Of a DNA stretch of 64,000 nt, positions 24,936 to 64,000 are shown piece by piece. The notes beneath the pieces are model-generated. The model saw only the letters and a program-made list of their open reading frames with translations. It did not search any database and had not been told where the DNA came from. Position numbers and translations under genes: made by a program. This DNA comes from Marchantia polymorpha subsp. ruderalis (lineage: Eukaryota > Streptophyta > Marchantiopsida > Marchantiales > Marchantiaceae). Position 1 is the first letter of the stretch; each line of letters begins with the position of its first letter. The stretch lies in assembly GCA_037833965.1 (NCBI GenBank), contig AP031357.1, positions 16,264,001 through 16,328,000 on the forward strand, given 5' to 3'.

Positions 24936-24944
24936 TGATAACAT

Positions 24945-25457
24945 TTAAATTAAATCACAAGTAGATGGTTTATATAGTTGTTTGAGAATTTTTGATTGTA
25001 GAACTTATCTATTCATGTTTGAACTGAATCACAAATGGATGTCTCATATAGTTGTTTGAGAATTGTGATTGTACAACTTATCTATTCATGTTTGAACTGA
25101 ATCACAAATAGATGTCTCATATAATTGTTTGAGAATTGTGATTGTACAACTTATCTATTCATGTTTGAACTGAATCACAAATGGATGTCTCATATAGTTG
25201 TTCGAGAATTTTTGATTGTAGAATTTATCTATTCATGTTTGAATTGAATCACAAATAGATGATTTATATAATTGTTCGAGAATTTTTGATTGTAAAGTTT
25301 ATTTACTCATGTTTGAATTGAATCACAAATAGATGACTCACATAGTTGTTCGAGAATTTTTTATTGTACAACTTATCTATTCATGTTTGGCTTAATTACA
25401 AATGGATCGCTCATATAGTTGTTTGAGAATTTTTGATTGTAAAATTTATCTATTCGT
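24945..25457. repeat. Minisatellite, about seven units of 73-74 bp
   Basis: The landmark AATCACAAxTxGATG recurs at 24953, 25027, 25100, 25173, 25247, 25321 and, as AATTACAA, 25394, giving spacings of 74, 73, 73, 74, 74 and 73. Each unit continues with a GTTGTTxGAGAAT block and TTATCTATTCATGTTTG. Units differ by a few substitutions and one-base indels. No frame stays open through the array, so it is non-coding. Confidence 0.88.
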
Positions 25458-45448: not shown

Positions 45449-45815
45449 ATTGGGGCGAACCATAGTTCTGATTTTCCAGTGATTTTATGGCAGGGGGCTG
45501 GACAGGGATCTATTTCGGGGAAGAGGCTCCAACATCCCGAGCAGGATCCAGGTCGTCCAGAAGTTCCGACATATGGGCCAGCTATAGTCCTGAATTTCCA
45601 GCGATTTTATGGCAGGCGGCTGGACAGGGATCTGTTTCGGGGAAGAAGTGTACAACATCCCGAGCAGGACCCAGGTCGTTCAGAAGTTCCGACATCTGGG
45701 CCAGCTATAGTGCTGATTTTCCAGCAATTTTATGGCAGGCGGCTGGACAGGGATCTGTTTCGGGGAAGAAGGCTCCAACATCCCCAGCAGGATCCAGGTC
45801 GTCCGGAAGTTCCGA
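45449..45815 (+). repeat. Three tandem copies (122-123 bp) of the GH17 exon 5' edge
   Basis: The landmark TTTTATGGCAGGxGGCTGGAC occurs at about 45484, 45606 and 45729, so the period is 122-123 bp. Each unit holds a pyrimidine-plus-CAG acceptor-like end (TTTCCAG), then coding sequence for GWTGI(C/Y)FGEE and about 20 further residues. Copy 1 lacks one base in the GGGGAAGA(A)GGCTCC region and so is frameshifted. Copy 2 keeps frame but runs into a TAG (near 45707) at the unit boundary. Only copy 3 continues into the GH17 domain. The upstream open frame (45443-45997) is an artefact of this repetition. Confidence 0.85.
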
Positions 45816-48089
45816 GATCTGGGCATCACCCGCGTCCGCCTCTACCACACTTACCAGGGCACGCTCCAGGCTTTCTCCAACAGCGGCATTCAGCTCACCG
45901 TGGGCATAACGAACGCAGATATCCTCAGGGCCTTATCAAGTGTGAACTCTGCCAAAAGGTGGGTCGATCGCAACATCGTCCCTTATGGCTCCAGTAACAT
46001 CGTCGCTGTTACGGTGGGAACCGAAGTCTTTACTTCGCCGGCGGACAATTTGAAAAACGCACTGCTGCCTTCGATGAAGAATCTGAGAGAGGCGCTGAAT
46101 CTGGCAGCTAAGAGTGGGATCAAGGTCACAACAGCTCACTCTTTCGACGTCGTCACGAACATCTTCCCCCCATCTAGCGGCCAGTTCGCTGACACCGGAA
46201 GGATGCAGCCCTTGGTGAACTGGCTGGCCAGGGTAGGATCCGATTTTATCTGCAACATCTACCCTTACTTCACGTACATAAACTCCAATGGGCAAATCAC
46301 GTTGCAATATGGCCGTCTTGAATCTGGTTCTGTCATAGATTCAAACAATGGCAAGATATATACAAATCTTCTCGCACAGCAGCTGGACGCAGTTTATGCA
46401 GCTCTGGGGAGATTGGGGCAGGAAGAGATGCGCGTGGTCCTTGGGGAGATCGGCTGGCCCACTTCAGGAGGCACTGCCACAGATACGAACAACGCTCGGA
46501 TCCACAACCAAAATCTGGTGAACTTATCTAGAGGAGGAACGCCACTCAAGCCCAACTGGGGAATCCAGACTTACATTCTTGCAATGTTCGACGAGAATCA
46601 GAAGGCTGCTGGCTTACAGAAGAGCTGGGGTTTGTACAATCCGAGAAACTTCCAAGCGAAGTATACCATAAACTTCGGAAACTCACCGACCCTTAGCAAT
46701 CGCATCACCCAGGGAATGAGACTGAGTAGCGGACAGTTTGTCATGTCCCAAAATCGAGTCTACAGGTTTATCATGCAGGCTGACTGCAACTTGGTCCTGT
46801 ATCAAACTGGTGTCGGACCTCTGTGGGACAGCAATACCATTGGCAGCGCCTCGGATTGTTACATGGAGCTGCAATCCGATGGGGACGCTGTAGTGTACGG
46901 TGGTGGCGTTGCACGCTGGGCTTCGGGAACTGGCGGGCGTAATGATGGAGCTCACCGCATCGACGTTCAGGACGATGGCAGCACTGTCATGTACAACGAA
47001 GCAAATCAAGCCATTTGGGCTACCAACACAGCAGGCAGTCGCATCACCCAGGGAACGAGACTGAGTAGCGGACAGTTTGTCATGTCCAAAAATCAAGTCT
47101 ACAAGTTAATCATGCAGGCTGACTGCAACTTGGTCCTTTATCAAACTAATGTCGGACATCTTTGGGCCAGCCGTACCGAGGGAATGGCCTCGGATGGTTA
47201 TATGGAGCTGCAATCCGATGGAAACGCTGTAGTGTTCGGTGGCGGTGTTGTACTCTGGTCTTCGGATACTTTGGGGCGTAATGATGGAGCTCACCGCATA
47301 GACGTTCAAGACGATGGAAACACTGTCATGTACAATGAAGCAAATCAAGCCATTTGGGCTACCAACACAGCAGGCAGTCGCATCACCCAGGGAATGAGAC
47401 TGAGTAGCGGACAGTTTGTGGATTCCAAAAATCGAGTCTACAGGTTTATCATGCAGGCTGACTGCAACTTGGTCCTGTATCAAACTGGTGTCGGACCTCT
47501 GTGGGACAGCAATACCATTGGCAGCGCCTCGGATTGTTACATGGAGCTGCAATCCGATGGGGACGCTGTAGTGTACGGTGGTGGCGTTGCACGCTGGGCT
47601 TCGAACACTTGTGGGCGTAATGATGGAGCTCATCACATCGACGTTCAGGACGATGGCAACACTGTCATGTACAATGAAGCAAATGAAGCCATTTGGGCTA
47701 CCAACACATCGAGCGGGCGCATCACCCAGGGAATGAGACTGAGTAGCGGACAGTTTGTCGAATCCAGAAATCGAGTCTACAGGTTTATCATGCAGGCTGA
47801 TTGCAACTTGGTCCTGTATCAAACTGGTGTCGGACGTCTGTGGGCCAGCAATACCGCTGGCAGCGGCTCGGATGGTCATATGGAGCTGCAACACGATGGA
47901 AACGCTGTAGTGTACGTTGGCGGTGTTGAACGCTGGGCTTTACAAGCACCAAGGGACGCACGCTGGGCATCGAATACTTGGGCGCGTAATGATGGAGCTC
48001 ACCGCATCGACATTCAGGACGATGGCAACGTTGTCATGTACAACGCAGCAAATGAAACCATTTGGGCTACTAACACAGCAGGGAGATGA
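45732..48089 (+). CDS. GH17 endo-1,3-beta-glucanase fused to four GNA-type (bulb) lectin domains
   Basis: Predicted wall-acting glucan hydrolase with mannose-lectin modules. Residues about 5-318 are GH17: GICFGEEGSNIPS, the RVRLYHTYQ strand, VGTEVF with acid/base Glu98 (usually VGNEV) and LGEIGWPTSGG with nucleophile Glu239. Four lectin domains start at RITQG (324, 437, 550 and 663), each exactly 113 aa (339 bp) apart. Each has three QxDxNxVxY-type sites such as QADCNLVLY, though Asn is Asp in some (QSDGDAVVY). Domain 4 has a roughly 10-residue insertion near 737-746 that partly duplicates RWA. No signal peptide is visible. The ATG lies at the repeated exon edge and could be intronic, so a distant first exon or a truncated 5' end is possible. 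The frame is otherwise open through 785 codons. Confidence 0.88.
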   Translation: MAGGWTGICFGEEGSNIPSRIQVVRKFRDLGITRVRLYHTYQGTLQAFSNSGIQLTVGITNADILRALSSVNSAKRWVDRNIVPYGSSNIVAVTVGTEVFTSPADNLKNALLPSMKNLREALNLAAKSGIKVTTAHSFDVVTNIFPPSSGQFADTGRMQPLVNWLARVGSDFICNIYPYFTYINSNGQITLQYGRLESGSVIDSNNGKIYTNLLAQQLDAVYAALGRLGQEEMRVVLGEIGWPTSGGTATDTNNARIHNQNLVNLSRGGTPLKPNWGIQTYILAMFDENQKAAGLQKSWGLYNPRNFQAKYTINFGNSPTLSNRITQGMRLSSGQFVMSQNRVYRFIMQADCNLVLYQTGVGPLWDSNTIGSASDCYMELQSDGDAVVYGGGVARWASGTGGRNDGAHRIDVQDDGSTVMYNEANQAIWATNTAGSRITQGTRLSSGQFVMSKNQVYKLIMQADCNLVLYQTNVGHLWASRTEGMASDGYMELQSDGNAVVFGGGVVLWSSDTLGRNDGAHRIDVQDDGNTVMYNEANQAIWATNTAGSRITQGMRLSSGQFVDSKNRVYRFIMQADCNLVLYQTGVGPLWDSNTIGSASDCYMELQSDGDAVVYGGGVARWASNTCGRNDGAHHIDVQDDGNTVMYNEANEAIWATNTSSGRITQGMRLSSGQFVESRNRVYRFIMQADCNLVLYQTGVGRLWASNTAGSGSDGHMELQHDGNAVVYVGGVERWALQAPRDARWASNTWARNDGAHRIDIQDDGNVVMYNAANETIWATNTAGR

Positions 48090-49561: not shown

Positions 49562-50379
49562 CCCGTGACGAATTTTGGCAATTTTACTTCAGAGTAGTCC
49601 CGGACATACTAAGCTTCATGTCTTGATGCAGTATCCTACACCATCGAACAACCCCTCCAATCTGCGGCTAGACAACGGTACTTAGTCTTTTTATGTGGTG
49701 CATCTCCACCTGTTCGTAGGATCAACAACGTCCTCTAGTCATATACGGGAGTTAGTTAGGGTACAGAATGGGCTGAGAAAATGAGACATGTTGGATGAAA
49801 TGAGTTATTTTTATGAAATTTGATCGGTTTGGCCCCTCGAGTGGGATAGCAGGTCGCAGGAGGTGAAAGGCCAACCTTGCTCGAGAACAAAGGTGGAACT
49901 GTGGCTTGAAACTTGTGGTCACAGAATATAGAGCAAACTGCGCGAGAGATGTGATCATTTAGATAGTGATCGGGAGGTGGGAAAAAATAGTAACCGTGCA
50001 ATGGGGGGAACTAGAAGCTGGTATCGCGAAGCTTCAAGGCGAGGACTTCAAATAGTACATGCAAACATACTCCATCATTTTAGGAAGTAACAGTAAGAAG
50101 ACTTTTGTGGATGGAGATTTGGCAGGTCTTGGTGGGGATATGAACATATCTCGCCAACATGCCCGCATAATCTACGAATTTGAGAGGAGAAGATTTGTGA
50201 TGGATTAACTTTGTAGTTAGCATAAAAAAAGTAGAGAGAGAGACAAAAAGAAGTAGGGGTTTTAGGGTTTCAAATATAAATTATGAGCATTTATTCTGAA
50301 GAGATGAAGGATTTAGATTTGATCTCTCACCCATTGCATTTGATCTCTTATCCATTACAATCTTAAGGTTCTGTACCCG
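49562..50379. other. Unassigned flank of the retrotransposon insertion
   Basis: No gene is recognised. The five bases before the LTR (ACCCG, 50375-50379) should be the target-site duplication, but the other copy lies beyond the window. Confidence 0.4.
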
Positions 50380-50408
50380 TGTGGTAACACACTTTTTGTT
50401 TTTTTTGC

Positions 50409-50410
50409 AG
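50409..50410 (+). other. Candidate splice acceptor at the LTR start (copy at 61078-61079)
   Basis: A run CTTTTTGTTTTTTTTGCAG, an excellent pyrimidine tract plus CAG, lies 11-31 bases into the LTR. In the 3' LTR copy it follows pol and precedes the second ORF1. Confidence 0.4.
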
Positions 50411-51735
50411 AATTTAAACAATTTCAGAAAACTAGTACCAAAGCAGTGTTTGTAGCTAGAGAAGGGTACGCTAAATAGAGTGGATTGATGAGATCGTCAC
50501 GAGGGCACAAAGAATCACGTAGTCGGATGTACCAACGCCAACGTCTTCGGCGCCTTTGGCAGAAGCCCCTTTTTGAGGTATCTCTACTCACGCGCCTCTA
50601 GCGTATAAGGAAGCTACGCTTCCGGCGCAGACACCTCAGGAGGAGGTTTTGCTAAAGACGTCAGGAGAAGGGCCCGGACCTCTAAAGGCATCCGACCATG
50701 AGTGCGCCTTCGGCGAAGCGCCGCTAGCGCGGAAAGGGAAAACCTTCATAACAATCGGGATACACGGTAGATCCAGTTGGTGGAAGTTGCATTAGACAGA
50801 GCTCGGGACGCTCGTTCTAACGAGTCCAAGAGCGCCGGAGATGGATCAGGAATGGAGAAGTTATGAGCGTCGGAAAACTCGTAGCCGGACATGCGCCGTT
50901 CGCGCTAGGGTTCACAGCCGGAAAGGATTCCCGTACGCCCTCGGCGATGCGCCTTCGGCGGAATCACGCGCTCACAGAAGGAAACCAACTCAGAGTCGGA
51001 AGCGCCCTTGGCGGCTGTTCATGGAAGGAAAGCGCCGGTCGGATGTACGCCTCCGACGTGGCGCTGACGGCCGGATGCGCTGGCATGAGTTGCGCTGACG
51101 GATATGCGCTGGCAGCAACGGACGAGGCATAAAGGACAAAATAGGCGGTACGACTGCGCGCCGGCGTAATTCGCTCCGGCTGGATGTGCGCCTCCAGCAA
51201 GGCGCCGACGGATAATGAACACACCAGCGGCGACACGCCTCCGGAGAAGGGCGGGTTAGGAAAAGACAACAGGGCCGACGTATACCCTGCAGCGGACTCG
51301 AGTCCGGAAGGTGGCGGCGGCGGGAGAATTCAACGTTTAAGCATGCGAATGCGCGCAAGGCGGAGACGTGAATTCGCGCATGCAAAGGGCGAACCGTTAA
51401 GCCGTATAGCCGGCTGCGTACGTTGCAACCAGTAAGAACGTTGGACGTTTTTGAAATCGGAGAAGAAAAGACTGCGCTCCAGTCTCATTCTCTCATTCTT
51501 GACTTTGCGATTTCCAGTTCCAAGATTACGCGCAAGGGCGGAGCGACCTGCAGTGAGAGTAGAGAGTGCGGAGACGAGTTGCGCAAGGATCTTGGCGGAC
51601 CTTGAAAGAATTGGAGTAGCGATCTCGAACGAGCGCAGAGAGAGTGAGCAGTCAGTGCTTGAGTGGCCGACGCGCAGTGGCGATTGTGAGAGAGCGAGCG
51701 AAAGGGAGAACGTTTGTGTGTGTGCAGGCAACGCA

Positions 51736-54291
51736 ATGTCGAAGGTTCCCCAGCTGCGAGTGTCTCCACTCAGGGTGCCACAGATCGGTCTACGCGCATT
51801 TCAAGATGTGCTGTTGAGGTTGAAGCTCGATTTTCTCCTATGGGGGTGGAATTGGACGTGTCCGGAGATGGTGCGCGAGTATCTGCAAGAGAGACACAAG
51901 CCTTCTCGCGGATTTCGCCCACACCCAGAGAGATGGGAAATTGGCAATTGGGCGCAGGTGTTGGGCAGGTGTGCCGGCGAGGAAGGGGATCTCCTCTTCG
52001 AGGCCGACAGCGTGAAAGTGTCCCAAGAGGAAGAAGTCTCTTACAATGAGCTCTTCAAGGTGGCTAGACATCCCAAGAACGGTTTCCGGACTCGGGATTA
52101 CAAGGATCGATTGCGGAGAAATGTCGCGACAGCATTGCTGCAGATATTGCAGCCGACCAAGACCGCTTACATGCATGGTTGGCAGGTAGAGTTCGTGGAG
52201 CTAGTGTTGTCAGGAGCTCCGGTGCATTGGGCACGACTTCTGTGGAAGGTGACGCGCCAACATGCGCAAGAAGAGAGGGGAGGAACGCTCAATCATCTAT
52301 CGCCTTACTTAATCGTGTTTTACCGGGCGATGGGATGTTTGACGAATGCTGAGAAAACTCGGTTTCCGCAGCTGAGCCGGTCTTATCCAGGTAGATATTC
52401 GAGGGAGGCCGAAGTAGACACGGATCCGGACGAGGAACCTGCCAGTACGCCTCCGGCTCCGGCTCCAGCCAGAGCAGCAGAAGAACGTCGAAGTGAGCGC
52501 ATTCCGCGCAAGCGGAAGTGGGATGAGAGACCTGAGGACAGGCAGCCGGAAGTACCAGCTGCGCCGACTCGTGGTCGGCCCACCCCCGAGCCTCATAGTC
52601 GACCAAAACAGAGGGCACGCAGAATGCCAACTGTTACTGAGGAGACCAGGCGAACTCCGACCCGGCGGAATCTCACACAGGAAGAGATAATCACTCAGGT
52701 TCTAGGGAAGACGGCAGAAACCTCTGCACAGAAGGCACCACGGCCTTCGGGAGGAGATGGACGGACTGACGACCGGCCGACTGCGAGTCGGATGACTGAA
52801 AGTCGACAGACGGAAGGAAGGCCAACTGAACGGCGCGTTGAACCGGACAGCAGGCCGGAAGCGGGAGAGAGTTTGGCTGACGAGCCAACAATCCTCAGAG
52901 GGTCGTCTTCGGCGGAAGGCACTTCTGGAAGAACGCCACCAACAAGTAGGCCAAGTGGAGTCAAGACGCGCAGGGTGTATCCGACTCCCAGTCGGACAAC
53001 TAATGGTCGGCCGATTGCGAGTCGGACAACAGAGAGTCAGCCGGATTCGCCGACTGCAAGACGGATGGGGCCAACGACCAGTGTGCGGACGCCTTCGGCG
53101 GACGCACCTTCAGCAAGGACACCTTCCGCGCAGATTGCGCCGGAAGGACAGGCAGCAGAAGCGGGCGGTGCAAGAGTGACAAAAGTCACTACGGCGTCGA
53201 CCCCTTCACAAACCGAAGATCGAGCCGGAACAGGGGCTCAAGCAGTGGGATCTCCCACTGCCCTGGATATTTTAGCAGGCAGTGGAGCAGCAGTCGCAGC
53301 AGAAGCTGCTGCGCGCCACAGTTCCAGGGAGTCGCCAAGGGATTCGGTGGCGACTGAAATCCTCGCGACTGAGGATGATACGAGCTCGGAAGAGCAGGAA
53401 GAGGAGTCAGTGCAGAAAACGCCAACAGGGGTGCTGTGCGAACAGATAGTTCCACTCCTGCGATATCTGGATCGCAAGACATCCAAATACGGAAGTGCCT
53501 TAAAACCGCAGTCTTATGTGGAGACAATCAGGCGAAGGACGAGGAGCAAGGTGGCAAGGTGGGCCTCTAGATGCGGAGTATATGTGGATAGGAACACCGC
53601 CCTCCGACAACACCTGGCGGTCACCCAGAAGCTGTACCAAGCCTTGCAGCAGCAGAAGGAGGATGCGGCGACGAAGAATCAGGCGGAGGCCGAACTAATA
53701 CGGGCAAAGATCGAGTCGGAACTGCAGGAGGAGCGGAGACAGAACGAAGTCCTAGCAGCCGAGCTTGCGCGCCAGACGCGCGCCTTAGAGGAAAGTCAAA
53801 GAGCCCGGAAGGAGGATGAGGAGTTGTTGTGCAACTTGCAAACCGAGTGCTCGGATTTGAGGACACAACGTGCGGATTTAGAAATGCAGCTGGCAGAGGT
53901 GGAGAGCAGCAGCAGGGCACGAGGAGAGTTGGCGGCACGGGTGACTCGTTGTCTAAACGGATACACCCATTGGGAGGTGGCAGCTCAAGAGAGGATTACA
54001 CTCCGGGAGTTCGAGCTTCGGGCGGCGGCATTGACGGAAGGTGACAGTCGGAGTCGGCGGCGAGTGGCAAGGAAATTAGAAACTTTTCTGTCGGGTGCGC
54101 GCGACACTATGGCGCACTTGCAGTCGGAAGTCACTGCAGCGCTCCGACGCCTGGGGTTACGCAGCCGGTCGGAAGACTGGCAGGGTAGAGATAGTACGCG
54201 GAGCAGTCCGGCGCGCAGGAGGCGCAGCACCGGATCTGCCGAGTGCAGTAGAGTAGTTTGGTTTCGCGCAGATGCTGCGAGTGGTAGATAG
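51736..54291 (+). CDS. ORF1 inside the LTR: 851-aa protein with N-terminal globular region, disordered Ser/Thr/Pro/Arg middle and coiled coil
   Basis: Function unknown. The frame is open from 51451, but the only in-frame ATG upstream of the conserved-looking region is at 51736 (GCAATGTCG), nine bases after a TGTGTGTGCAG acceptor-like site. Residues 1-215 look folded (Trp-rich, with GWNWTCPEMVREYL and a VHWARLLWKVTRQHAQEE helix followed by LSPYLIVFYRAMG). Residues about 225-540 are low-complexity with repeated ASRxTExR-type motifs. An acidic DDTSSEEQEEES lies near 548. Residues about 620-735 form a long heptad-like Q/E/A/L coiled coil. The tail is Arg/Ser-rich. There is no zinc knuckle, protease, transmembrane segment or signal peptide, so it is neither gag nor an envelope protein. 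The N-terminal pattern faintly recalls the accessory plant-transposon-protein region of Athila-type elements (inference). Confidence 0.8.
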   Translation: MSKVPQLRVSPLRVPQIGLRAFQDVLLRLKLDFLLWGWNWTCPEMVREYLQERHKPSRGFRPHPERWEIGNWAQVLGRCAGEEGDLLFEADSVKVSQEEEVSYNELFKVARHPKNGFRTRDYKDRLRRNVATALLQILQPTKTAYMHGWQVEFVELVLSGAPVHWARLLWKVTRQHAQEERGGTLNHLSPYLIVFYRAMGCLTNAEKTRFPQLSRSYPGRYSREAEVDTDPDEEPASTPPAPAPARAAEERRSERIPRKRKWDERPEDRQPEVPAAPTRGRPTPEPHSRPKQRARRMPTVTEETRRTPTRRNLTQEEIITQVLGKTAETSAQKAPRPSGGDGRTDDRPTASRMTESRQTEGRPTERRVEPDSRPEAGESLADEPTILRGSSSAEGTSGRTPPTSRPSGVKTRRVYPTPSRTTNGRPIASRTTESQPDSPTARRMGPTTSVRTPSADAPSARTPSAQIAPEGQAAEAGGARVTKVTTASTPSQTEDRAGTGAQAVGSPTALDILAGSGAAVAAEAAARHSSRESPRDSVATEILATEDDTSSEEQEEESVQKTPTGVLCEQIVPLLRYLDRKTSKYGSALKPQSYVETIRRRTRSKVARWASRCGVYVDRNTALRQHLAVTQKLYQALQQQKEDAATKNQAEAELIRAKIESELQEERRQNEVLAAELARQTRALEESQRARKEDEELLCNLQTECSDLRTQRADLEMQLAEVESSSRARGELAARVTRCLNGYTHWEVAAQERITLREFELRAAALTEGDSRSRRRVARKLETFLSGARDTMAHLQSEVTAALRRLGLRSRSEDWQGRDSTRSSPARRRRSTGSAECSRVVWFRADAASGR

Positions 54292-54324
54292 GATAGCGTA
54301 GTGCTAGTTAGGATCTTTTGAGAG

Positions 54325-54330
54325 TATAAA
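54325..54330 (+). promoter_or_regulatory. Putative LTR TATA box
   Basis: GAGTATAAAGTAG lies 34 bases after the ORF1 stop and is the best TATA match in the LTR. Transcription from about 54355 would place ORF1 wholly in U3 and give a leader of about 980 bases before gag. Confidence 0.5.
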
Positions 54331-54735
54331 GTAGATCAAGGCGTTTTGCCTTGGGACTCTTCCAGTTTCGGAAGTGCAGATCAGGAACTCACTTTCTTGG
54401 CGTGTTTGTGCATTTTGGTCCTGGCACCACGTAGAGAAGCTGCAGCATAGCGAAGTTACCGTATGTTGTAGTTGAAGGCCTTCGGCTGAATGTTCAGAGC
54501 TAGTACCCGGTTAGAGACTTGAGTAGTGCGGATCTGCACCTGCGGGTGATTTCTGATGCTCAGAGCCGGCTGCGAGTTAGAGACTTGAACAGTTCCCCCT
54601 TACTCCTTCGAGTGACATATCCTGATTGTACTCCTACGGGAAGTTTCCCCTGAATGCCAATGTGAAGTTTCATTACTTCGTGTAAACCTTGGTTTGTAAT
54701 TCAGGTTGTGTGTGTGTTACTGGATCGTGTTTTCA

Positions 54736-54741
54736 GTAAGT
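54736..54741 (+). other. Candidate splice donor in the LTR leader
   Basis: TTTTCAGTAAGT gives a strong CA/GTAAGT donor downstream of the TATA box and upstream of the PBS. It could splice to the acceptor at 61079 or 62396 in the 3' LTR. Confidence 0.35.
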
Positions 54742-55033
54742 TCTCAGTCGGGTCTGCACTCCCTGCGTTTTGTGTGATAGTCGAGGGTGACGTCCACGGC
54801 GTACGTAGAGGCTTCGTTCCGAAGTGAGAAGTCCAGTCCGGGTACCCCCGCTAGTTCCTGGCGGAAGGGCAGTAAAAGCCGGAGTGGGAGGCACTTCCTG
54901 CAGAACCTCTGAGTGAACTTGCGAGACACTTTCCTCCTGAAATCCGAAGCGGAGGTCCTGACCGACCTCCGAGTTGTGCTTTTTGCCAGTTTCAGGTGTG
55001 TGTGTGTGTGTGTTGAGTGACCAAGCTGTACCG

Positions 55034-55095
55034 TGCATCCTCCGAGCATCCTCCGAGTTGAGTTCCTCCTCCGAGTCGAGCCTCCGAGTCGAGCA
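55034..55095 (+). repeat. Short CCTCCGAGT-type direct repeats in the LTR leader
   Basis: About five near-copies of CCTCCGAG(TCGAG), with related single copies near 54964. They lie between the donor site and the PBS; the function is unknown. Confidence 0.55.
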
Positions 55096-55271
55096 CTACA
55101 GTATTTCTGGGAGTGACAGTCGCCTAGAATTCAAACTCTACCAAAAGTCTGTTAAACGTGACACTTTTACTCTGTGTGTTGCCTCTGTCCCTGTGGGTTC
55201 GATCTTTTTACCACCATACTGCAGTTTTAGCCTTTGGTGGGTTATTACATAAGGAGCCGACAACTTCTTTT

Positions 55272-55289
55272 TGGCGCCGCTGCCGGGGA
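55272..55289 (+). other. Primer-binding site, tRNA-Asp type
   Basis: TGGCGCCGCTGCCGGGGA is complementary to the plant tRNA-Asp 3' end with one difference (C for T at position 9). It fixes the LTR's 3' boundary just upstream and so proves that ORF1 lies inside the LTR. Athila-type elements use the same primer. Confidence 0.88.
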
Positions 55290-55332: not shown

Positions 55333-58170
55333 ATGTCGACGAGCGATAGTGTGGGAAACCTGAGTGCGAGAGCCACACGGAAACTCCGTCGAGATTCAGA
55401 AAAAGCCGTGGAAACAAAACGGCGAACTAAAAAGAAGACTCCCAGTGAGGACTCTGCAGAAAGATCGCCATCACCGACTACTGGAAGACAAAGGCGTTCC
55501 AGTTCACCTACCGAGAGCATTGAGCTAACAGTTCTATTGGACATCCCTCCGACGGGAACTCTTCCTGAGTTTGGCCAACCTAGGATCAGTCCGTCGACAG
55601 GATCACCGATGGCAGAACATCAAGCCAATCTCCGCCAGGTGTTTTCCCAACCTACCACCAAACATTCGTATCCAAGATACACGGGAACGGGCGACGACGA
55701 TGATGCAGATTCATACATAAAGCTCTTCGAGTCTGTCTCCATCGCCAATCGTGAGACCAGTGATGAAGACAGATTACGAATCTTTCCTAGCCTGCTACGC
55801 AGACGAGCGCGTAGCTGGTACAACCATGAGAGCACCGACCCCACTGGCATCCGGACCTGGGCTCAGCTCAAGGAAAAGTTTCTGAAGCGGTTCCGCGAAC
55901 TCGGATACGACAGTCGAGTTCTGACCCGGCTTCGAAATCTTCGACGCGAGCGGAAGGAGAATCTTCGAGACTACACGGAGAGATTCCAAGACCTCCTAGA
56001 TCGAATTCCGAAGACAGGCCCGGGAGAACCGTATTCGGTACAACAGGCAGTGGATTGGTATGTGACGGGGCTCTCAAGAGAAATGGAGACCTTCTGTAGG
56101 AGAGGCAAGACTGACACAATCCAAGATGTGATAGCTTCCGCGGAGACCTTTGAGACGTCAACCCTTGACACTCGAAGACGCGACCGACGGTCGACGAAGA
56201 AGAAGTCGCAAGGCGGACGTCGGAAGAGAAGGAACTCGCCTTCCTCGACAGAAGAATCAAGCTCCTCCGAATCAAGTTCTTCCTCGGAGGAGGAAGAGGA
56301 CTCGTCATCTTCAGAAGAAGAAAGACGGAAGAAGAAACGCAGTGCGATCAAGAAGAAGGATCGAGGTAAGGGAATCCCAGTGAAGACTCAAGGGGACATC
56401 GCAGCCAAGGTAGACAACCTGGTGAAGAATTTTGCGGACCTGAAAGTTCATGTAGTGGGAGGCCAAGACCGACGTAAATCACCTGCGAGACAACGAGCAA
56501 ATCTCTGGTGTACTACGTGCGGACAGGTGGGACATGCCAACACGGAGTGCATGTCCGCGAGGCCATCTTACCCAGTGAATGCGGTCGAATGGGCACCACA
56601 GTGGGAGACCCCCATGTATTATGCTGAGCCGCCTATGTATTATGCTGAGCAGGTTGAGGACACCGCCTACTCGGTACAGACAGCTCCAGCTACAACTCCG
56701 AACCCACCGGTGCATATACCGCGCTTTGTTCCAAGGGAAATGGCGGGTACACTCCCACCAAGACGCATGGCACCTCCAGGAAATCACACAGGAAATAACC
56801 GACCTCGAGCACAATTCGATGGTTGCTACAACTGCGGAGACATGGGGCATTACGCGCCAAGTTGTCCCCACCCGAGGAGGCCAATGGGGTATGCACCATT
56901 GTGCAGCAATTGCAAGAAGTCCGGACATACAGCAGCTGAATGTGACCAGCCCCAAATCCCTAGGCCAGCCGTGCGTTTCGTATCAACACCTGGCAAGGAA
57001 GAAGTGCAAGTCAACCAGGTAGAACTGAGTCTGGACCCAGCTGAAGGAGACGAAGTATGGCCAGAGGAAGAAGTAATGTGCGGTCGGGTAGAAACCCGAA
57101 GTTCGAAGAGGAGAGGAGAAGGCCATGAGGACACTCGCCGCCTTGAGCGTAAGGAAGAGAGAAGGAAGTCTAAAGAAGTTAAAGAAGGCCAAAGGAGAAC
57201 GCCAAGTACACCTCCGGCTATGAGAAACACCCAGCCGGAGCAGAACTCAGAAAAGGCGGACAGGTATTCAGAAGAGTTCCGGACTCGAGATTACCTTCCG
57301 GACATCAAAGATGAGGTGAGTCACCTCATCAAGGAAGCACTGAACGCCGGAATGACATCCGACGACCGGAAGGCGGTTAGGCCCCCTACACCCCTTCCGA
57401 CCGCGAGTACAGGGAACCTTCCGGCTGTGACTTCCAACACTCCCTACGACATAGTGAAAGACATGGGGAACCAGAGGGCAAATATTTCCTTCCACCAGTT
57501 GTTGGAAGACAATAAGACGTACAGGAGGATGCTGATGCTTTCGTTGCGCCGACCACGCAAACCCCGAAAAGAGAAACTTCCGGATGTGTACAGAGTGGAA
57601 GGAGGAGACCTAGGACCACTAGAGATCGAAGTAGAGATCGGAGGCTGTGTCATTCAGAAGGTACCAGTGGACTCCGGCTCGGGCGTGAATATCATGACCG
57701 AGGAGACAGCGAACTCCTTGGGGTTCCAGACCTTCGAGCCTACATCCCGAGTATTGCGACTGGCCGATCAAACACGCAGAATGCCACTAGGAATGTTGAG
57801 CAATGTGAGAACCAACATTGGAGGAGTGGACTTTCAACTGTCCTACATAATACTGCAACCTCTGATGAAGAAAGGTTATGATGTGCTGCTTGGCAGACCT
57901 TGGCTATACGATGCCAAAGCAAGGTGTGACTGGAGTAGGAAGAGATTACAGTTCCGTAGCCCTGCGGACCCTCCGACTGTCATTACCGTACCGTGGACCA
58001 AGGTACCTCATGAAGGCGAAACACCTTCCACCACCTCCGGTTACACAACCGGAGGGGAGACCAGCTCATCATGCACTTCAGAGACCGAAACGTCGGAAGA
58101 CTTTGTGGGCTACGTCACTTGCTGCTCCATTGAGGAGGAAGGAGACGAGGTGTATCCGGATGACGAATAG
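55333..58170 (+). CDS. gag-pro: Gag-protease polyprotein, 945 aa, ending in a leaky UAG
   Basis: Structural protein and aspartic protease. The start ATG lies 44 bases after the PBS; a 13-codon upstream frame (55322-55363) overlaps it. Residues 1-100 are basic and Ser-rich. Residues about 110-275 are the Retrotrans_gag capsid region (RRRARSWYNHES, WAQLKEKFLKRF, LRDYTERFQDLLDRIP). Residues 276-375 are a Ser/Glu/Lys tract. Three CX2CX4HX4C zinc knuckles follow: CTTCGQVGHANTEC (about 394), CYNCGDMGHYAPSC (about 498) and CSNCKKSGHTAAEC (about 524). The protease has the VDSGSG active site with Asp780 and the flap-side motif DVLLGRPWL at 850. The end is acidic (EEEGDEVYPDDE). The frame then continues past UAG directly into pol. 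Confidence 0.94.
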   Translation: MSTSDSVGNLSARATRKLRRDSEKAVETKRRTKKKTPSEDSAERSPSPTTGRQRRSSSPTESIELTVLLDIPPTGTLPEFGQPRISPSTGSPMAEHQANLRQVFSQPTTKHSYPRYTGTGDDDDADSYIKLFESVSIANRETSDEDRLRIFPSLLRRRARSWYNHESTDPTGIRTWAQLKEKFLKRFRELGYDSRVLTRLRNLRRERKENLRDYTERFQDLLDRIPKTGPGEPYSVQQAVDWYVTGLSREMETFCRRGKTDTIQDVIASAETFETSTLDTRRRDRRSTKKKSQGGRRKRRNSPSSTEESSSSESSSSSEEEEDSSSSEEERRKKKRSAIKKKDRGKGIPVKTQGDIAAKVDNLVKNFADLKVHVVGGQDRRKSPARQRANLWCTTCGQVGHANTECMSARPSYPVNAVEWAPQWETPMYYAEPPMYYAEQVEDTAYSVQTAPATTPNPPVHIPRFVPREMAGTLPPRRMAPPGNHTGNNRPRAQFDGCYNCGDMGHYAPSCPHPRRPMGYAPLCSNCKKSGHTAAECDQPQIPRPAVRFVSTPGKEEVQVNQVELSLDPAEGDEVWPEEEVMCGRVETRSSKRRGEGHEDTRRLERKEERRKSKEVKEGQRRTPSTPPAMRNTQPEQNSEKADRYSEEFRTRDYLPDIKDEVSHLIKEALNAGMTSDDRKAVRPPTPLPTASTGNLPAVTSNTPYDIVKDMGNQRANISFHQLLEDNKTYRRMLMLSLRRPRKPRKEKLPDVYRVEGGDLGPLEIEVEIGGCVIQKVPVDSGSGVNIMTEETANSLGFQTFEPTSRVLRLADQTRRMPLGMLSNVRTNIGGVDFQLSYIILQPLMKKGYDVLLGRPWLYDAKARCDWSRKRLQFRSPADPPTVITVPWTKVPHEGETPSTTSGYTTGGETSSSCTSETETSEDFVGYVTCCSIEEEGDEVYPDDE

Positions 58171-58176
58171 CAACTA
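58168..58176 (+). promoter_or_regulatory. Programmed stop-codon readthrough site (UAG CAA CUA)
   Basis: Gag-pro ends TAG and is followed by CAA CTA, an exact match to the UAG-CARYYA consensus of tobamovirus-type leaky stops. No other stop occurs in this frame from 55333 to 61011. Pol has no ATG before the RT domain region, so readthrough is the simplest way to make it. Confidence 0.82.
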
Positions 58177-61011
58177 GCAGCCGGACTGGGCAGAAGCGAG
58201 ATCAGTCACACAGAGGGGATTGTTGACCCGAGTGATTGCTGCGAACTGCAGCTCAGTCCAGGTAAAGGCTTGAAGGTGTCAAGCCAGGTACAAGGAGAAG
58301 AGTTGAACAGGGTACAGGCGTTTCTTCGCCAGTATGAGGATGTCTTCGCATGGAGGATTGAAGACATGAAAGGCATACCTGCAAGGTATGGAGAGCACAG
58401 GATCGACTTGTTGGACGAGGCAGTTCCGGTTCGCCAACGCCAATACAGGCTCAACCCAAAATATTCATTATTGGTGAAGGACGAAATCGATAAGTACCTG
58501 AGCGCAGGAATCATCTACCCGGTACTTAGTAGCGAGTGGGTGTCGCCTATCGTGATCGTACCCAAGAAACTGACGGGTAAGATCCGGGTGTGCCAGGACT
58601 TCAGGAAGCTGAATGCAGCAACGAGGAAGGACCATCACCCTCTCCCTTTCACGGACTCTATTCTGGACCATGTAGCAGGGCATGAATGCTACAGTTTTCT
58701 AGACGGATTTTCCGGCTACAACCAGGTGTCCATCAGGGAACAGGACAAGGACAAAACAACCTTCACAACCGACTGGGGAACCTATGCTTATCACAAGATG
58801 CCGTTCGGTCTGTGCAACGCGCCAGCGACGTTCCAGCGGATGATGACAAACATCTTCCAAGAGCACCTGAGGAAGTTCCTAGAAATTTTCATCGACGACT
58901 TTTGTGTCTTCGGTAAGAGGTCGGAGCACCTTAACCATCTTCGGCAAACGTTCGACAGATGTAGGGAGAGCAGCTTGTCCTTACACCCTGAGAAATGTTT
59001 CTTCTTCATGACCAGCGGAATCCTGCTGGGGCACCGAGTTTCGTCCGATGGCATTGCAGTGGATGTAGAGAAGGTGAAGATTATTCTCGAACTGCAGCCG
59101 CCAACGAATCTGCGTGAGTTGAGGGCCTTCCTTGGCCATGTAGGTTATTACAGAAGGTTCATAAATATGTATGCCATCTTGGCAGCCGATCTGACAAAGC
59201 TGCTTAAGAAGGATGAACCCTATGTGTGGGGCAAGGAGCAACAGCTGGCCTTTGAAACGCTCAAAGCCAAACTGACGACTGCTCCGGTTCTGAGAAGTCC
59301 GGATTGGAACAGACCTTTCCATGTCTATGTAGACACGTCGGCGTTTGCAATCGGGGTGGTTCTCAGTCAGAAGGACGACAACAAGAAAGACTACCCGATT
59401 TACTTCGCGAGTCGTCAGTTGTCAGCAGCAGAGAAGAAGTACACGACAACTGAGAGGGAGGCGTTGGGAATGGTGTACTCCTGTAAGAAGTTCCGACATT
59501 ATTTGATCTGCTATGAGTTCGTGTTTCATGTAGATCATTACGCCTTACAGCACCTGGTGAAGAAGGCGGATCTGTCCGGACGAATTGCCAGGTGGGTGCT
59601 ACTGCTGCAGGAATTCACCTACACTGTACAGACACGAAAAGGCGTTCACCATGAGAACGCGGACTACCTCTCCCGACTATGGACCGAACCCATAGAGGAG
59701 GAAGTAGTGGATGATTTTCCCGACGAACAACTTTTTCAGTTGTCCGCCAGCCATGAGTCCAGGTACGCGGACTTATACAGGTTTCTGCTCACACTCCAAT
59801 GTCCGGAAGGATTGGATGCGGAGCAGCGCACAGTCTTCGTTCATAAAGCGGGACCTTACCAGCTTCAACAGGGGGTCTTGTTCAAGAAAATGGCAGACGA
59901 GAGGTTGTGCAGATGTCTAGAGGAGTCTGAAGTACCGCGAGTTGTCAAAGCCATGCACACAGAAGACGCTGGTGGTCACTACGCCACCAGAAACACAGTG
60001 ACCAAAATTGTGAATGCAGGATACTGGTGGCCGACGATGTTCAAAGATGTACACGACTACGTTCGCAAATGCGACAGCTGCCAGAGGACGGGAAGGCCGA
60101 CTCCGACCACGAGATGGCCTCTTACACCAATCATGCCATTAGCACCATTTGAAAAATGGGGGATCGACTTCGTGGGACCAATACAACCTGTCACTAAAGG
60201 CACGCGCAGGCGCTACATATTGGTAGCAACAGACTATGCGACCAAGATGGTGGAGGCAGAAGCCACAAGGCACGATGACGCAGCCGCAGTAGCACGGTTC
60301 ATATTCGAATCAATCATCACCCGCTACGGGTGCCCCCTAGAAATAGTCAGTGACAGAGGGACGCACTTTCTGAATCAGGTGATAGAAAGTTTGACGCGGC
60401 ACTTCCAGATTAAGCATCGGAAGACTACTCCATACAACCCCAAGGCAAATGGTCTGACAGAGAAGTCCAATGGATTACTCTGTAAGATACTCCTCAAGGT
60501 AACTGTAAACCATGCTCATGACTGGGACACCAAGCTACCGGCCGCCTTATGGGCATATAGAACGGCAGAAAAAGTCACCACCAGGCAAACACCTTACTTC
60601 CTAGTTTATGGGCAGCATCCGATCTTACCCATCGAATTCGAGATACCTACCAAGAGGACCTTAGATCAGAGAAGGCTGGACGCGGAAGAAAGTCAGGCAT
60701 ATAGACTGCAAGAGGTAATGGCACTGGAGGAAAGACGTCAAGAGGCCGAAGATCGGACAAAGCAATTACAACTCAGGCGGAAGGAGAAGTACGATCGAAG
60801 GCTCAAACCAGTACTGCTGGAGAAGGGCGATTTGGCTCTGCTATACGATAGCAGACATGCTAGATTTCCAGGCAAGCTCCACTTGAGGTGGATGGGACCT
60901 TACAAGGTGATAGAAGTTTTTCCAAATGGATCCATCCAACTCGCAGAACTGACGGGAGAATGGTTAGGCACCCGCGTGAACGGATGGCGTCTGAAGAAAT
61001 ACCACGTGTAA
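58171..61011 (+). CDS. pol: Pol: reverse transcriptase, RNase H, integrase (readthrough extension of gag-pro)
   Basis: It makes the cDNA and integrates it. The frame is the gag-pro frame. Positions below count from the TTG at 58270, the first possible initiator; the first ATG is only at 58366. RT has VCQDFRKLNAAT, the palm motif FIDD (207-210) instead of the common YVDD/YIDD, and LGHRVSSDG. RNase H has HVYVDTSAFAIG with Asp355, and TTTEREALGMV. Integrase has an HHCC zinc module (His about 563, CDSC at 601-604) and core residues Asp633, Asp695 and Glu731 with exact D-D(35)-E spacing. The end is a GPY/F module (RWMGPYKV, about 873). There is no chromodomain, and no envelope-like ORF fits in the 25 bases before the PPT. 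All catalytic residues are present. Confidence 0.94.
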   Translation, partial: QLAAGLGRSEISHTEGIVDPSDCCELQLSPGKGLKVSSQVQGEELNRVQAFLRQYEDVFAWRIEDMKGIPARYGEHRIDLLDEAVPVRQRQYRLNPKYSLLVKDEIDKYLSAGIIYPVLSSEWVSPIVIVPKKLTGKIRVCQDFRKLNAATRKDHHPLPFTDSILDHVAGHECYSFLDGFSGYNQVSIREQDKDKTTFTTDWGTYAYHKMPFGLCNAPATFQRMMTNIFQEHLRKFLEIFIDDFCVFGKRSEHLNHLRQTFDRCRESSLSLHPEKCFFFMTSGILLGHRVSSDGIAVDVEKVKIILELQPPTNLRELRAFLGHVGYYRRFINMYAILAADLTKLLKKDEPYVWGKEQQLAFETLKAKLTTAPVLRSPDWNRPFHVYVDTSAFAIGVVLSQKDDNKKDYPIYFASRQLSAAEKKYTTTEREALGMVYSCKKFRHYLICYEFVFHVDHYALQHLVKKADLSGRIARWVLLLQEFTYTVQTRKGVHHENADYLSRLWTEPIEEEVVDDFPDEQLFQLSASHESRYADLYRFLLTLQCPEGLDAEQRTVFVHKAGPYQLQQGVLFKKMADERLCRCLEESEVPRVVKAMHTEDAGGHYATRNTVTKIVNAGYWWPTMFKDVHDYVRKCDSCQRTGRPTPTTRWPLTPIMPLAPFEKWGIDFVGPIQPVTKGTRRRYILVATDYATKMVEAEATRHDDAAAVARFIFESIITRYGCPLEIVSDRGTHFLNQVIESLTRHFQIKHRKTTPYNPKANGLTEKSNGLLCKILLKVTVNHAHDWDTKLPAALWAYRTAEKVTTRQTPYFLVYGQHPILPIEFEIPTKRTLDQRRLDAEESQAYRLQEVMALEERRQEAEDRTKQLQLRRKEKYDRRLKPVLLEKGDLALLYDSRHARFPGKLHLRWMGPYKVIEVFPNGSIQLAELTGEWLGTRVNGWRLKKYHV

Positions 61012-61035: not shown

Positions 61036-61046
61036 GAGGAGGGGGG
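61036..61046 (+). other. Polypurine tract
   Basis: GAGGAGGGGGG followed by CA and then the 3' LTR TG at 61049. It primes plus-strand synthesis and fixes the 5' boundary of the LTR. Confidence 0.9.
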
Positions 61047-61048
61047 CA

Positions 61049-64000
61049 TGTGGTAACACACTTTTTGTTTTTTTTGCAGAATTTAAACAATTTCAGAAAA
61101 CTAGTACCAAAGCAGTGTTTGTAGCTAGAGAAGGGTACGCTAAATAGAGTGGATTGATGAGATCGTCACGAGGGCACAAAGAATCACGTAGTCGGATGTA
61201 CCAACGCCAACGTCTTCGGCGCCTTTGGCAGAAGCCCCTTTTTGAGGTATCTCTACTCACGCGCCTCTAGCGTATAAGGAAGCTACGCTTCCGGCGCAGA
61301 CACCTCAGGAGGAGGTTTTGCTAAAGACGTCAGGAGAAGGGCCCGGACCTCTAAAGGCATCCGACCATGAGTGCGCCTTCGGCGAAGCGCCGCTAGCGCG
61401 GAAAGGGAAAACCTTCATAACAATCGGGATACACGGTAGATCCAGTTGGTGGAAGTTGCATTAGACAGAGCTCGGGACGCTCGTTCTAACGAGTCCAAGA
61501 GCGCCGGAGATGGATCAGGAATGGAGAAGTTATGAGCGTCGGAAAACTCGTAGCCGGACATGCGCCGTTCGCGCTAGGGTTCACAGCCGGAAAGGATTCC
61601 CGTACGCCCTCGGCGATGCGCCTTCGGCGGAATCACGCGCTCACAGAAGGAAACCAACTCAGAGTCGGAAGCGCCCTTGGCGGCTGTTCATGGAAGGAAA
61701 GCGCCGGTCGGATGTACGCCTCCGACGTGGCGCTGACGGCCGGATGCGCTGGCATGAGTTGCGCTGACGGATATGCGCTGGCAGCAACGGACGAGGCATA
61801 AAGGACAAAATAGGCGGTACGACTGCGCGCCGGCGTAATTCGCTCCGGCTGGATGTGCGCCTCCAGCAAGGCGCCGACGGATAATGAACACACCAGCGGC
61901 GACACGCCTCCGGAGAAGGGCGGGTTAGGAAAAGACAACAGGGCCGACGTATACCCTGCAGCGGACTCGAGTCCGGAAGGTGGCGGCGGCGGGAGAATTC
62001 AACGTTTAAGCATGCGAATGCGCGCAAGGCGGAGACGTGAATTCGCGCATGCAAAGGGCGAACCGTTAAGCCGTATAGCCGGCTGCGTACGTTGCAACCA
62101 GTAAGAACGTTGGACGTTTTTGAAATCGGAGAAGAAAAGACTGCGCTCCAGTCTCATTCTCTCATTCTTGACTTTGCGATTTCCAGTTCCAAGATTACGC
62201 GCAAGGGCGGAGCGACCTGCAGTGAGAGTAGAGAGTGCGGAGACGAGTTGCGCAAGGATCTTGGCGGACCTTGAAAGAATTGGAGTAGCGATCTCGAACG
62301 AGCGCAGAGAGAGTGAGCAGTCAGTGCTTGAGTGGCCGACGCGCAGTGGCGATTGTGAGAGAGCGAGCGAAAGGGAGAACGTTTGTGTGTGTGCAGGCAA
62401 CGCAATGTCGAAGGTTCCCCAGCTGCGAGTGTCTCCACTCAGGGTGCCACAGATCGGTCTACGCGCATTTCAAGATGTGCTGTTGAGGTTGAAGCTCGAT
62501 TTTCTCCTATGGGGGTGGAATTGGACGTGTCCGGAGATGGTGCGCGAGTATCTGCAAGAGAGACACAAGCCTTCTCGCGGATTTCGCCCACACCCAGAGA
62601 GATGGGAAATTGGCAATTGGGCGCAGGTGTTGGGCAGGTGTGCCGGCGAGGAAGGGGATCTCCTCTTCGAGGCCGACAGCGTGAAAGTGTCCCAAGAGGA
62701 AGAAGTCTCTTACAATGAGCTCTTCAAGGTGGCTAGACATCCCAAGAACGGTTTCCGGACTCGGGATTACAAGGATCGATTGCGGAGAAATGTCGCGACA
62801 GCATTGCTGCAGATATTGCAGCCGACCAAGACCGCTTACATGCATGGTTGGCAGGTAGAGTTCGTGGAGCTAGTGTTGTCAGGAGCTCCGGTGCATTGGG
62901 CACGACTTCTGTGGAAGGTGACGCGCCAACATGCGCAAGAAGAGAGGGGAGGAACGCTCAATCATCTATCGCCTTACTTAATCGTGTTTTACCGGGCGAT
63001 GGGATGTTTGACGAATGCTGAGAAAACTCGGTTTCCGCAGCTGAGCCGGTCTTATCCAGGTAGATATTCGAGGGAGGCCGAAGTAGACACGGATCCGGAC
63101 GAGGAACCTGCCAGTACGCCTCCGGCTCCGGCTCCAGCCAGAGCAGCAGAAGAACGTCGAAGTGAGCGCATTCCGCGCAAGCGGAAGTGGGATGAGAGAC
63201 CTGAGGACAGGCAGCCGGAAGTACCAGCTGCGCCGACTCGTGGTCGGCCCACCCCCGAGCCTCATAGTCGACCAAAACAGAGGGCACGCAGAATGCCAAC
63301 TGTTACTGAGGAGACCAGGCGAACTCCGACCCGGCGGAATCTCACACAGGAAGAGATAATCACTCAGGTTCTAGGGAAGACGGCAGAAACCTCTGCACAG
63401 AAGGCACCACGGCCTTCGGGAGGAGATGGACGGACTGACGACCGGCCGACTGCGAGTCGGATGACTGAAAGTCGACAGACGGAAGGAAGGCCAACTGAAC
63501 GGCGCGTTGAACCGGACAGCAGGCCGGAAGCGGGAGAGAGTTTGGCTGACGAGCCAACAATCCTCAGAGGGTCGTCTTCGGCGGAAGGCACTTCTGGAAG
63601 AACGCCACCAACAAGTAGGCCAAGTGGAGTCAAGACGCGCAGGGTGTATCCGACTCCCAGTCGGACAACTAATGGTCGGCCGATTGCGAGTCGGACAACA
63701 GAGAGTCAGCCGGATTCGCCGACTGCAAGACGGATGGGGCCAACGACCAGTGTGCGGACGCCTTCGGCGGACGCACCTTCAGCAAGGACACCTTCCGCGC
63801 AGATTGCGCCGGAAGGACAGGCAGCAGAAGCGGGCGGTGCAAGAGTGACAAAAGTCACTACGGCGTCGACCCCTTCACAAACCGAAGATCGAGCCGGAAC
63901 AGGGGCTCAAGCAGTGGGATCTCCCACTGCCCTGGATATTTTAGCAGGCAGTGGAGCAGCAGTCGCAGCAGAAGCTGCTGCGCGCCACAGTTCCAGGGAG
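61049..64000 (+). repeat. 3' LTR, first 2952 bp; continues past the window
   Basis: It repeats 50380-53331 at a fixed offset of 10669 with no difference in any predicted protein. Its missing end should lie near 65.9 kb. Confidence 0.92.
62405..64000 (+). CDS. ORF1, second copy in the 3' LTR, cut by the window end (532 codons visible)
   Basis: Same start context (TGTGTGTGCAG, then GCAATGTCG) and the same predicted residues as the first copy. It includes the folded N-terminal region and most of the disordered middle; the coiled coil lies outside. This copy lies downstream of pol on a genomic transcript and is the one that a spliced subgenomic mRNA could express. Confidence 0.78.
   Translation, partial: MSKVPQLRVSPLRVPQIGLRAFQDVLLRLKLDFLLWGWNWTCPEMVREYLQERHKPSRGFRPHPERWEIGNWAQVLGRCAGEEGDLLFEADSVKVSQEEEVSYNELFKVARHPKNGFRTRDYKDRLRRNVATALLQILQPTKTAYMHGWQVEFVELVLSGAPVHWARLLWKVTRQHAQEERGGTLNHLSPYLIVFYRAMGCLTNAEKTRFPQLSRSYPGRYSREAEVDTDPDEEPASTPPAPAPARAAEERRSERIPRKRKWDERPEDRQPEVPAAPTRGRPTPEPHSRPKQRARRMPTVTEETRRTPTRRNLTQEEIITQVLGKTAETSAQKAPRPSGGDGRTDDRPTASRMTESRQTEGRPTERRVEPDSRPEAGESLADEPTILRGSSSAEGTSGRTPPTSRPSGVKTRRVYPTPSRTTNGRPIASRTTESQPDSPTARRMGPTTSVRTPSADAPSARTPSAQIAPEGQAAEAGGARVTKVTTASTPSQTEDRAGTGAQAVGSPTALDILAGSGAAVAAEAAARHSSRE

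Follow-up and report, generated by a model that had tools for sequence, protein, structure and literature searches.

The window analysed here is a stretch of 64,000 nucleotides from the liverwort Marchantia polymorpha subsp. ruderalis, located at C8:16264001-16328000 in the genome that was searched (241 Mb, nine contigs). It carries a complete Ty3/gypsy retrotransposon, 15,539 bp long and inserted very recently, in which an open reading frame (ORF) of 851 amino acids, here called ORF1, lies inside the long terminal repeat (LTR). The original prediction, made from the sequence of the window, had proposed a long LTR encoding a protein of its own, and this proved to be real: ORF1 at 51736-54291 is inside the 5' LTR. 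The end of the 3' LTR was read from the neighbouring genome stretch. The features that define the element and its two ORF1 copies are the following.

50375..50379, no strand: target-site duplication (TSD) ACCCG, left copy; its right counterpart lies beyond the window, after the 3' LTR
50380..55249, plus strand: 5' LTR, 4,870 bp, TGTGGTAA...TTATTACA (TG...CA)
51736..54291, plus strand: ORF1, 851 aa, copy in the 5' LTR
55272..55289, plus strand: primer-binding site (PBS) TGGCGCCGCTGCCGGGGA, 18 nt, complement of the tRNA-Asp(GTC) 3' end plus CCA
61036..61048, plus strand: polypurine tract (PPT) GAGGAGGGGGGCA, in a context, CACAATTGAGGAG, common to other groups
61049..64000, plus strand: 3' LTR, part within the window; its end is at window-equivalent 65918
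62405..64000, plus strand: ORF1, copy in the 3' LTR, first 532 codons within the window; complete in locus L011, 1 aa different

The 5' LTR ends at 55249 and not at 55262 as first proposed. The 3' LTR had been expected to end near 65.9 kb; it was found to end at 65918, and ACCCG stands on both sides of the element. The internal region lies between the PBS at 55272 and the PPT at 61036, as had been stated, with no second match to the PBS core in the window on either strand and with the PPT ending at 61048. Twenty-nine tRNA-like 3' ends of the searched form were present in the genome, all 29 having the base that matches the PBS. One of these sites was fetched and called tRNA-Asp(gtc) by ARAGORN, with a 3' end that is one base too long as judged from the sequence.

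The two LTRs differ at 1 of 4,870 sites. This site, 53771, is within ORF1 and alters one residue, so the two copies of ORF1 are one amino acid apart, where the original prediction had them identical. The family of the window is called family A, and its LTR pairs (10 pairs) show 0 or 1 substitution per pair, with the comparison limited to 4,389 bases in one pair and 15 gap columns present in one pair. As one LTR is made as a copy of the other during reverse transcription, such near-identity is a sign of the youth of the insertion only, and the argument for selection that had been drawn from it does not stand.

Intactness of ORF1 and selection

ORF1 is open for 951 codons from stop to stop, the other five frames of the LTR for at most 164, and the longest frame in 1,000 order-1 Markov simulations of the LTR had 411 codons. 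The length of 851 aa is kept in all 21 LTR copies fetched (11 elements including the window, on contigs C1, C2, C3, C5, C6, C7 and C8), with 0-20 amino acid differences from the ORF1 of the window. Twenty of these copies were read with both ends; for the remaining one, in L018, the fetched stretch stops between ORF1 and the end of the LTR. The LTR alignment has no gap column in ORF1, 1 before it and 18 after it. Furthermore, 52 of the 53 best-scoring genome places for ORF1 have no internal stop; these places were picked by score and are near-identical, young copies. Older, diverged groups have stops in many of the listed ORF1 places.

For the codon comparison, the ORF1 of the window was compared with nine relative fragments, leaving out columns with gaps or stops, matches above 90% identity and minus-strand matches. 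The nine fragments contain 0, 1, 0, 9, 2, 1, 1, 0 and 0 in-frame stops. In the fragment with 9 stops, from L018, 21 codon positions were counted twice via overlapping matches, which makes its figures rougher. The proportion of synonymous differences (pS) was 0.66-0.79, which is near saturation. The proportion of nonsynonymous differences (pN) was 0.23-0.30 in the N domain (residues 1-235; four of four fragments) and 0.28-0.31 in the C domain (from residue 561; five of five), compared with 0.34-0.49 in the linker (all five fragments having enough codons). The corresponding ratio of nonsynonymous to synonymous rates (dN/dS) was 0.146-0.172 in the N domain in all four fragments and 0.22-0.33 in the linker in the three fragments with finite dS; in the C domain it was 0.20 in one fragment out of five, dS being saturated in the other four. 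Ratios printed as 0.0 denote saturated dS and are no estimates. Values of dN/dS are rough at this divergence; in the aligned codons, the contrast between synonymous and nonsynonymous changes and that between the domains are plain.

Within family A, 23 synonymous and 25 nonsynonymous single changes were counted among 11 copies, giving a dN/dS of about 0.52, as expected for young copies under weak filtering. The between-family dN/dS, together with the same placement of ORF1 in the LTRs of diverged groups, indicates that ORF1 is under long-term purifying selection, and on these grounds the claim of a selected gene holds. A chance frame was also considered, and is ruled out by the between-family dN/dS and by the 951 open codons against the simulated maximum of 411.

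Relatives carrying ORF1 in their LTRs

Protein searches, in which the best-sharing 7,994 and 7,995 candidates were scored, yielded 16 and then 41 homologues. Every named homologue is from Marchantia polymorpha; P0001, P0021, P0025, P0036, P0038 and P0041 are without a name. On the DNA level we distinguish, apart from family A, a subfamily B and a third, older group C.

In subfamily B, the ORF1 fragments are 40-64% identical to the window and ORF1 lies within single LTRs flanked by TSDs. One such LTR, on C1, extends from L034:2412, after GCTTC, to L027:9123, before GCTTC, and is about 4.9 kb long; another, on C6, has AAAGT on both sides. Each of these TSDs was read across two loci, on either side of a nested element. 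In group C, the fragments are about 30-46% identical, and ORF1 again lies within single LTRs, having the TSDs TCAAA, TTACT, TAGTT and TGAAG; in the three that were read for frames (those with TCAAA, TTACT and TAGTT) ORF1 is broken. Additionally, an old element on C1 shows an integrase 61-76% identical to that of the window, followed by the PPT context GCTCACAATTGAGGAG, as in the window, by an LTR start and then by pieces of ORF1 (35-45%). A group C single LTR lies between this LTR start and ORF1, and we infer that the ORF1-bearing stretch is one LTR. To judge from these sequences, ORF1 is part of the LTR in several groups; in the family of the window and in the old C1 element it comes after the same kind of pol.

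The junction between PPT and LTR was used as a pattern for the whole genome and gave 1,167 matches (599+568). A slightly different pattern with the B-type LTR start gave 675 (352+323), and the reversed control of either pattern gave 0. Some B-type junctions on one strand are evenly spaced (11,184, 11,092 and about 11,198 bp), at C2:31345310-31378892, C3:20852727-20874941 and C3:22622608-22645033; tandem arrays of whole elements sharing LTRs would fit this spacing.

Four of the ten two-sided family A elements are nested in a related LTR, within its ORF1 region (L018/L019; L020/L021/L035; L026/L027/L034; L028/L029/L036/L037), which may reflect a target preference or mere abundance. At L018/L019 (C7:22.09-22.11 Mb) the two LTRs are in opposite orientation and share the outer 5-mer (GGTGG/CCACC), with ORF1 intact in both; this copy looks like a self-integration product. 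At L025 (C7:23.68 Mb) the internal start TAAGG, and not the 5-mer CTCCC, follows the second LTR, which looks like a head-to-tail arrangement of LTR-internal-LTR-internal.

Among the protein homologues, P0015 (MARPO_0006s0274, Marchantia polymorpha) is a gene model in which a piece of ORF1 (84% identity, covering 16% of ORF1) is combined with a long stretch rich in K, E, R and D and with a gag domain. It reflects either splicing of ORF1 to gag in a transcript or an error of the model. Two further candidates were rejected. The P0004 locus is not a domesticated host gene, its ORF1 being broken in the N part and situated in an LTR that another insertion has cut; the P0016 locus, given as 902 in the search column, has no intact gene, its longest frame from an ATG being 296 aa. 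Pieces of these two proteins, both from Marchantia polymorpha subsp. ruderalis, match the genome nearly perfectly (P0016 at 98-100%; P0004 at 98% over residues 81-710 and 94% over 1-90), which fits that species or a very close relative as the source.

Probable promoter position and possible role of the protein

Two features downstream of ORF1 bear on its position within the LTR.

54325..54330, plus strand: TATAAA, predicted core promoter of the genomic RNA, with a predicted RNA start near 54355
54337..54353, plus strand: inverted repeat CAAGGC-GTTTT-GCCTTG, kept in relatives

TATAAA occurs once in the LTR of the window on both strands taken together, beginning 34 bp past the stop of ORF1. GTATAAA(G/A)TAG with the inverted repeat is also found after ORF1 in L027, L020, L037, L019 and L041, and in L020 and L037 both arms of the repeat have changed together (CCAGGC...GCCTGG). 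The combined motif has 6,281 matches in the genome with at most 2 mismatches, and its reversed control has 0; the places listed for it are the exact matches on C1 only. If each of the 6,281 motifs stood for a full LTR, this would amount to about 30 Mb of LTR, which is an upper estimate. Lying between the TATA box and the expected RNA start, the inverted repeat might serve as a palindrome for protein binding or as a hairpin at the 5' end of the RNA. Because the sole TATAAA of the window LTR is downstream of ORF1 and recurs there in relatives, ORF1 is most likely situated in U3, as the last gene of the genomic RNA, in the family of the window, in subfamily B and in the L041 type.

The protein consists of a conserved N domain (residues 1 to about 235), a variable linker and a conserved C part from about residue 561 with a coiled coil. 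The linker contains PRKRKW, a motif resembling a nuclear localisation signal (NLS), at about 257-262, and a loose form of this pattern is present in 20 of the 41 homologues, many of which are fragments. AlphaFold2 models the C part as a long predicted coiled coil with a helix of 178 residues, in agreement with the coiled coil noted in the original prediction. Other ORF1 members matched Extensin_1 (0.00019) and CENP-K (0.0018), each in one of nine; these matches fit low-complexity and coiled-coil stretches.

The explanation that we propose, with a probability of roughly 45%, is that the 4,870-bp LTRs of this Ty3/gypsy element each hold an intact ORF1, most likely in U3, whose product is predicted to be an accessory protein with a coiled coil, located in the nucleus, and would work in trans on the LTR promoter of its family. 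A genomic RNA starting from the TATA box would have the order R-U5-gag-pro-(TAG readthrough)-pol-PPT-U3[ORF1]-R, and reverse transcription would copy ORF1 to the other end of the element. Expression of ORF1 itself might depend on a spliced RNA, or on a promoter without a TATA box somewhere in the 1.36 kb of U3 that precede the gene. Its N domain may bind DNA or RNA of the element, the conserved inverted repeat next to the TATA box being one possible target, and oligomers would form through the coiled coil, whereby the product could counter silencing or tune transcription. On this model a solo LTR would amount to an independent copy of the ORF1 gene.

That the product is a nuclear regulator on the LTR is favoured by analogy with the nuclear accessory proteins of plant elements and with the VANC proteins. 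According to the accessible part of PMC7264820, Grande gene23, the antisense ORFs of Retand and RIRE2, and PvRetro13 have no known function; GENE23 is nuclear and PvRetro13 has an SMC domain. Like these, ORF1 is an accessory protein kept across copies; theirs differ in being antisense, between pol and the 3' LTR, and present in one copy per element. VANDAL elements are DNA transposons. In Arabidopsis their VANC is an element-encoded anti-silencing protein acting on the DNA of its own family, as described in the available portions of PMC5735166 and PMC10398659. VANDAL is an element of a different kind, and VANC would serve for ORF1 as a working model only.

Several observations weigh against the proposed role or leave parts of it less secure. 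The promoter argument has gaps, since a TATA box of this kind is missing from the 3' part of the group C LTRs and another TATAAA lies close to the beginning of the LTR in L041 (L041:355). Upstream of ORF1, no splice acceptor proved to be conserved. The N domain is modelled by AlphaFold2 as mostly helical, with uncertainty (predicted local distance difference test, pLDDT, mean 49.5). The Pfam scan of the window ORF1 gave nothing above the cut-off, which leaves no biochemical activity named, and the PDB sequence search with ORF1 gave no match at E 0.1. The nuclear location is predicted from the short basic motif alone. Concerning the relatives, the B-type LTRs at L018 and L036 have one end found each, the TSD of a fifth group C LTR is imperfect (GCACC/ACACC), and the far LTR end of the old C1 element was not found.

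One splice acceptor was tried and rejected. At the T-rich LTR start it is plausible in the window, and its AG is not kept in relatives or between groups.

A different reading is that ORF1 encodes a particle, RNA or movement protein serving packaging, RNA export or cell-to-cell spread; an upstream shift of the PPT would be the sole reason for its place within the LTR. ORF1 comes directly after pol and PPT, where plant elements have sense extra ORFs according to the accessible part of PMC7264820, and its coiled coil and basic regions would also be compatible with RNA binding; the recurrence of the NLS-like motif among homologues argues against such a protein, as does the Pfam scan, in which ORF1 matched no gag or RNA-binding family. 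We rate this reading as somewhat unlikely, a particle or RNA role being almost as likely as that of a nuclear regulator. If ORF1 were instead the first cistron of the genomic RNA, a promoter would lie upstream of it in the LTR, R would be several kb long and translation would proceed from the leader. A pyrimidine-rich, initiator-like stretch seen by eye at about 51480-51530, before the ATG of ORF1, would suit this, but the only TATAAA of the window LTR comes after ORF1, and is likewise placed in five other LTRs, which makes a first cistron quite improbable.

ORF1 could also be a passenger with no part to play in the element, whether captured from the host or open merely by chance. No named function and the stops at many listed places in older groups would be in line with this; it is largely refuted by the between-family dN/dS well below 1, and the placement kept across groups and the length of the open frame relative to the simulations also stand against it. 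No outside donor gene was seen among the scored candidates, whose named hits are all from Marchantia polymorpha. A passenger is very improbable. A composite LTR, with an ORF1-bearing repeat inside an otherwise ordinary short one, and likewise a misassembly, had nothing in its favour and is refuted by the 21 LTR copies with ORF1 on seven contigs and by the diverged groups with TG...CA and TSDs around ORF1, and its probability is negligible. An extension of the nuclear-regulator explanation, which we rate as unlikely in its full form, is that the LTR is a self-contained cassette of a gene and its downstream core promoter. The gene would then be present twice per insertion and free-standing in solo LTRs, and the nuclear coiled-coil protein would recognise the LTR promoter palindrome and protect or activate the family, the motif being found 6,281 times in the 241-Mb genome.

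Classification and comparison with known elements

The coding part between the LTRs has the following features.

55333..58170, plus strand: gag-protease ORF with Retrotrans_gag, CCHC knuckles and a weak aspartyl protease match (Pfam)
58168..58176, plus strand: TAG CAA CTA, stop between gag-pro and pol, one frame throughout
58171..61011, plus strand: pol, with reverse transcriptase (RT), RNase H (RH) and integrase (INT) (Pfam scan)

A stop followed by Q-L is present at the gag-pro/pol junction in all nine copies having it (the window and 8 loci). In the 8 loci it was judged from the translation, and the letters TAG CAA CTA are those of the window. We take TAG CAA CTA to be a stop-readthrough context of the tobamovirus type.

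The LTR pair, TSD, PBS, PPT, gag-pro and the order RT-RH-INT assign the element to Ty3/gypsy. No chromodomain after the integrase was found among the Pfam matches of pol at E 1, which does not support a chromovirus, and the Pfam scan of pol gave no additional RNase H (the aRH of Tat). A non-Met primer tRNA, Asp being among those listed, characterises the Tat/Athila superclade in the accessible part of the source, and the tRNA-Asp PBS agrees with this. The Athila ORF-1 domain PF03078, which occurs in 16% of elements, was not matched. The moss non-chromovirus Phygy is distinguished by an NCGN target preference and a short element, unlike the present 15.5-kb element and TSDs such as GGAAG, ACAGT, TTTAT and AGCAT. 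Transposase_28, the Retand/Grande-type domain that is antisense between pol and the 3' LTR, was not matched by ORF1, which is sense and in the LTR, and neither was the plant mobile domain PF10536 of the Ogre-type extra ORF.

Elsewhere in the window, a 785-aa ORF at 45732-48089 combines a family 17 glycosyl hydrolase with mannose-binding lectin repeats, and at the DNA level it contains direct repeats of 339 bp. At 24944-25505 a sequence recurs every 73-74 bp, in seven overlapping copies.

LTRs are usually regarded as regulatory, non-coding ends. The closest layout is that of mouse mammary tumour virus (MMTV), in which, according to the available text of PMC3026287, the LTRs are about 1.3 kb long and Sag is encoded in the 3' LTR. 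Both have an accessory gene inside a long LTR, and thus at both ends. For the likeness in U3 placement, ORF1 inside the LTR is observed, and ORF1 inside U3 is predicted from the position of the TATA box. MMTV differs in being an animal retrovirus, the LTR of the liverwort element is almost four times longer, and ORF1 has neither a Pfam match above the cut-off nor a PDB match. A limited literature search, covering parts of the sources, found no plant family with a gene inside the LTR, in agreement with the original prediction that no such family had been described.

In its layout this is a plant counterpart of the MMTV sag gene. A selected gene in the LTR of several groups means that solo LTRs, usually dismissed as relics, can retain a coding gene, and that the accessory gene now shares sequence space with the promoter of the element. 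For annotation, repeat masking or LTR-based dating in Marchantia involves coding sequence. As Marchantia is a laboratory plant with many near-identical copies of the element, the function of a retrotransposon accessory protein becomes testable there.

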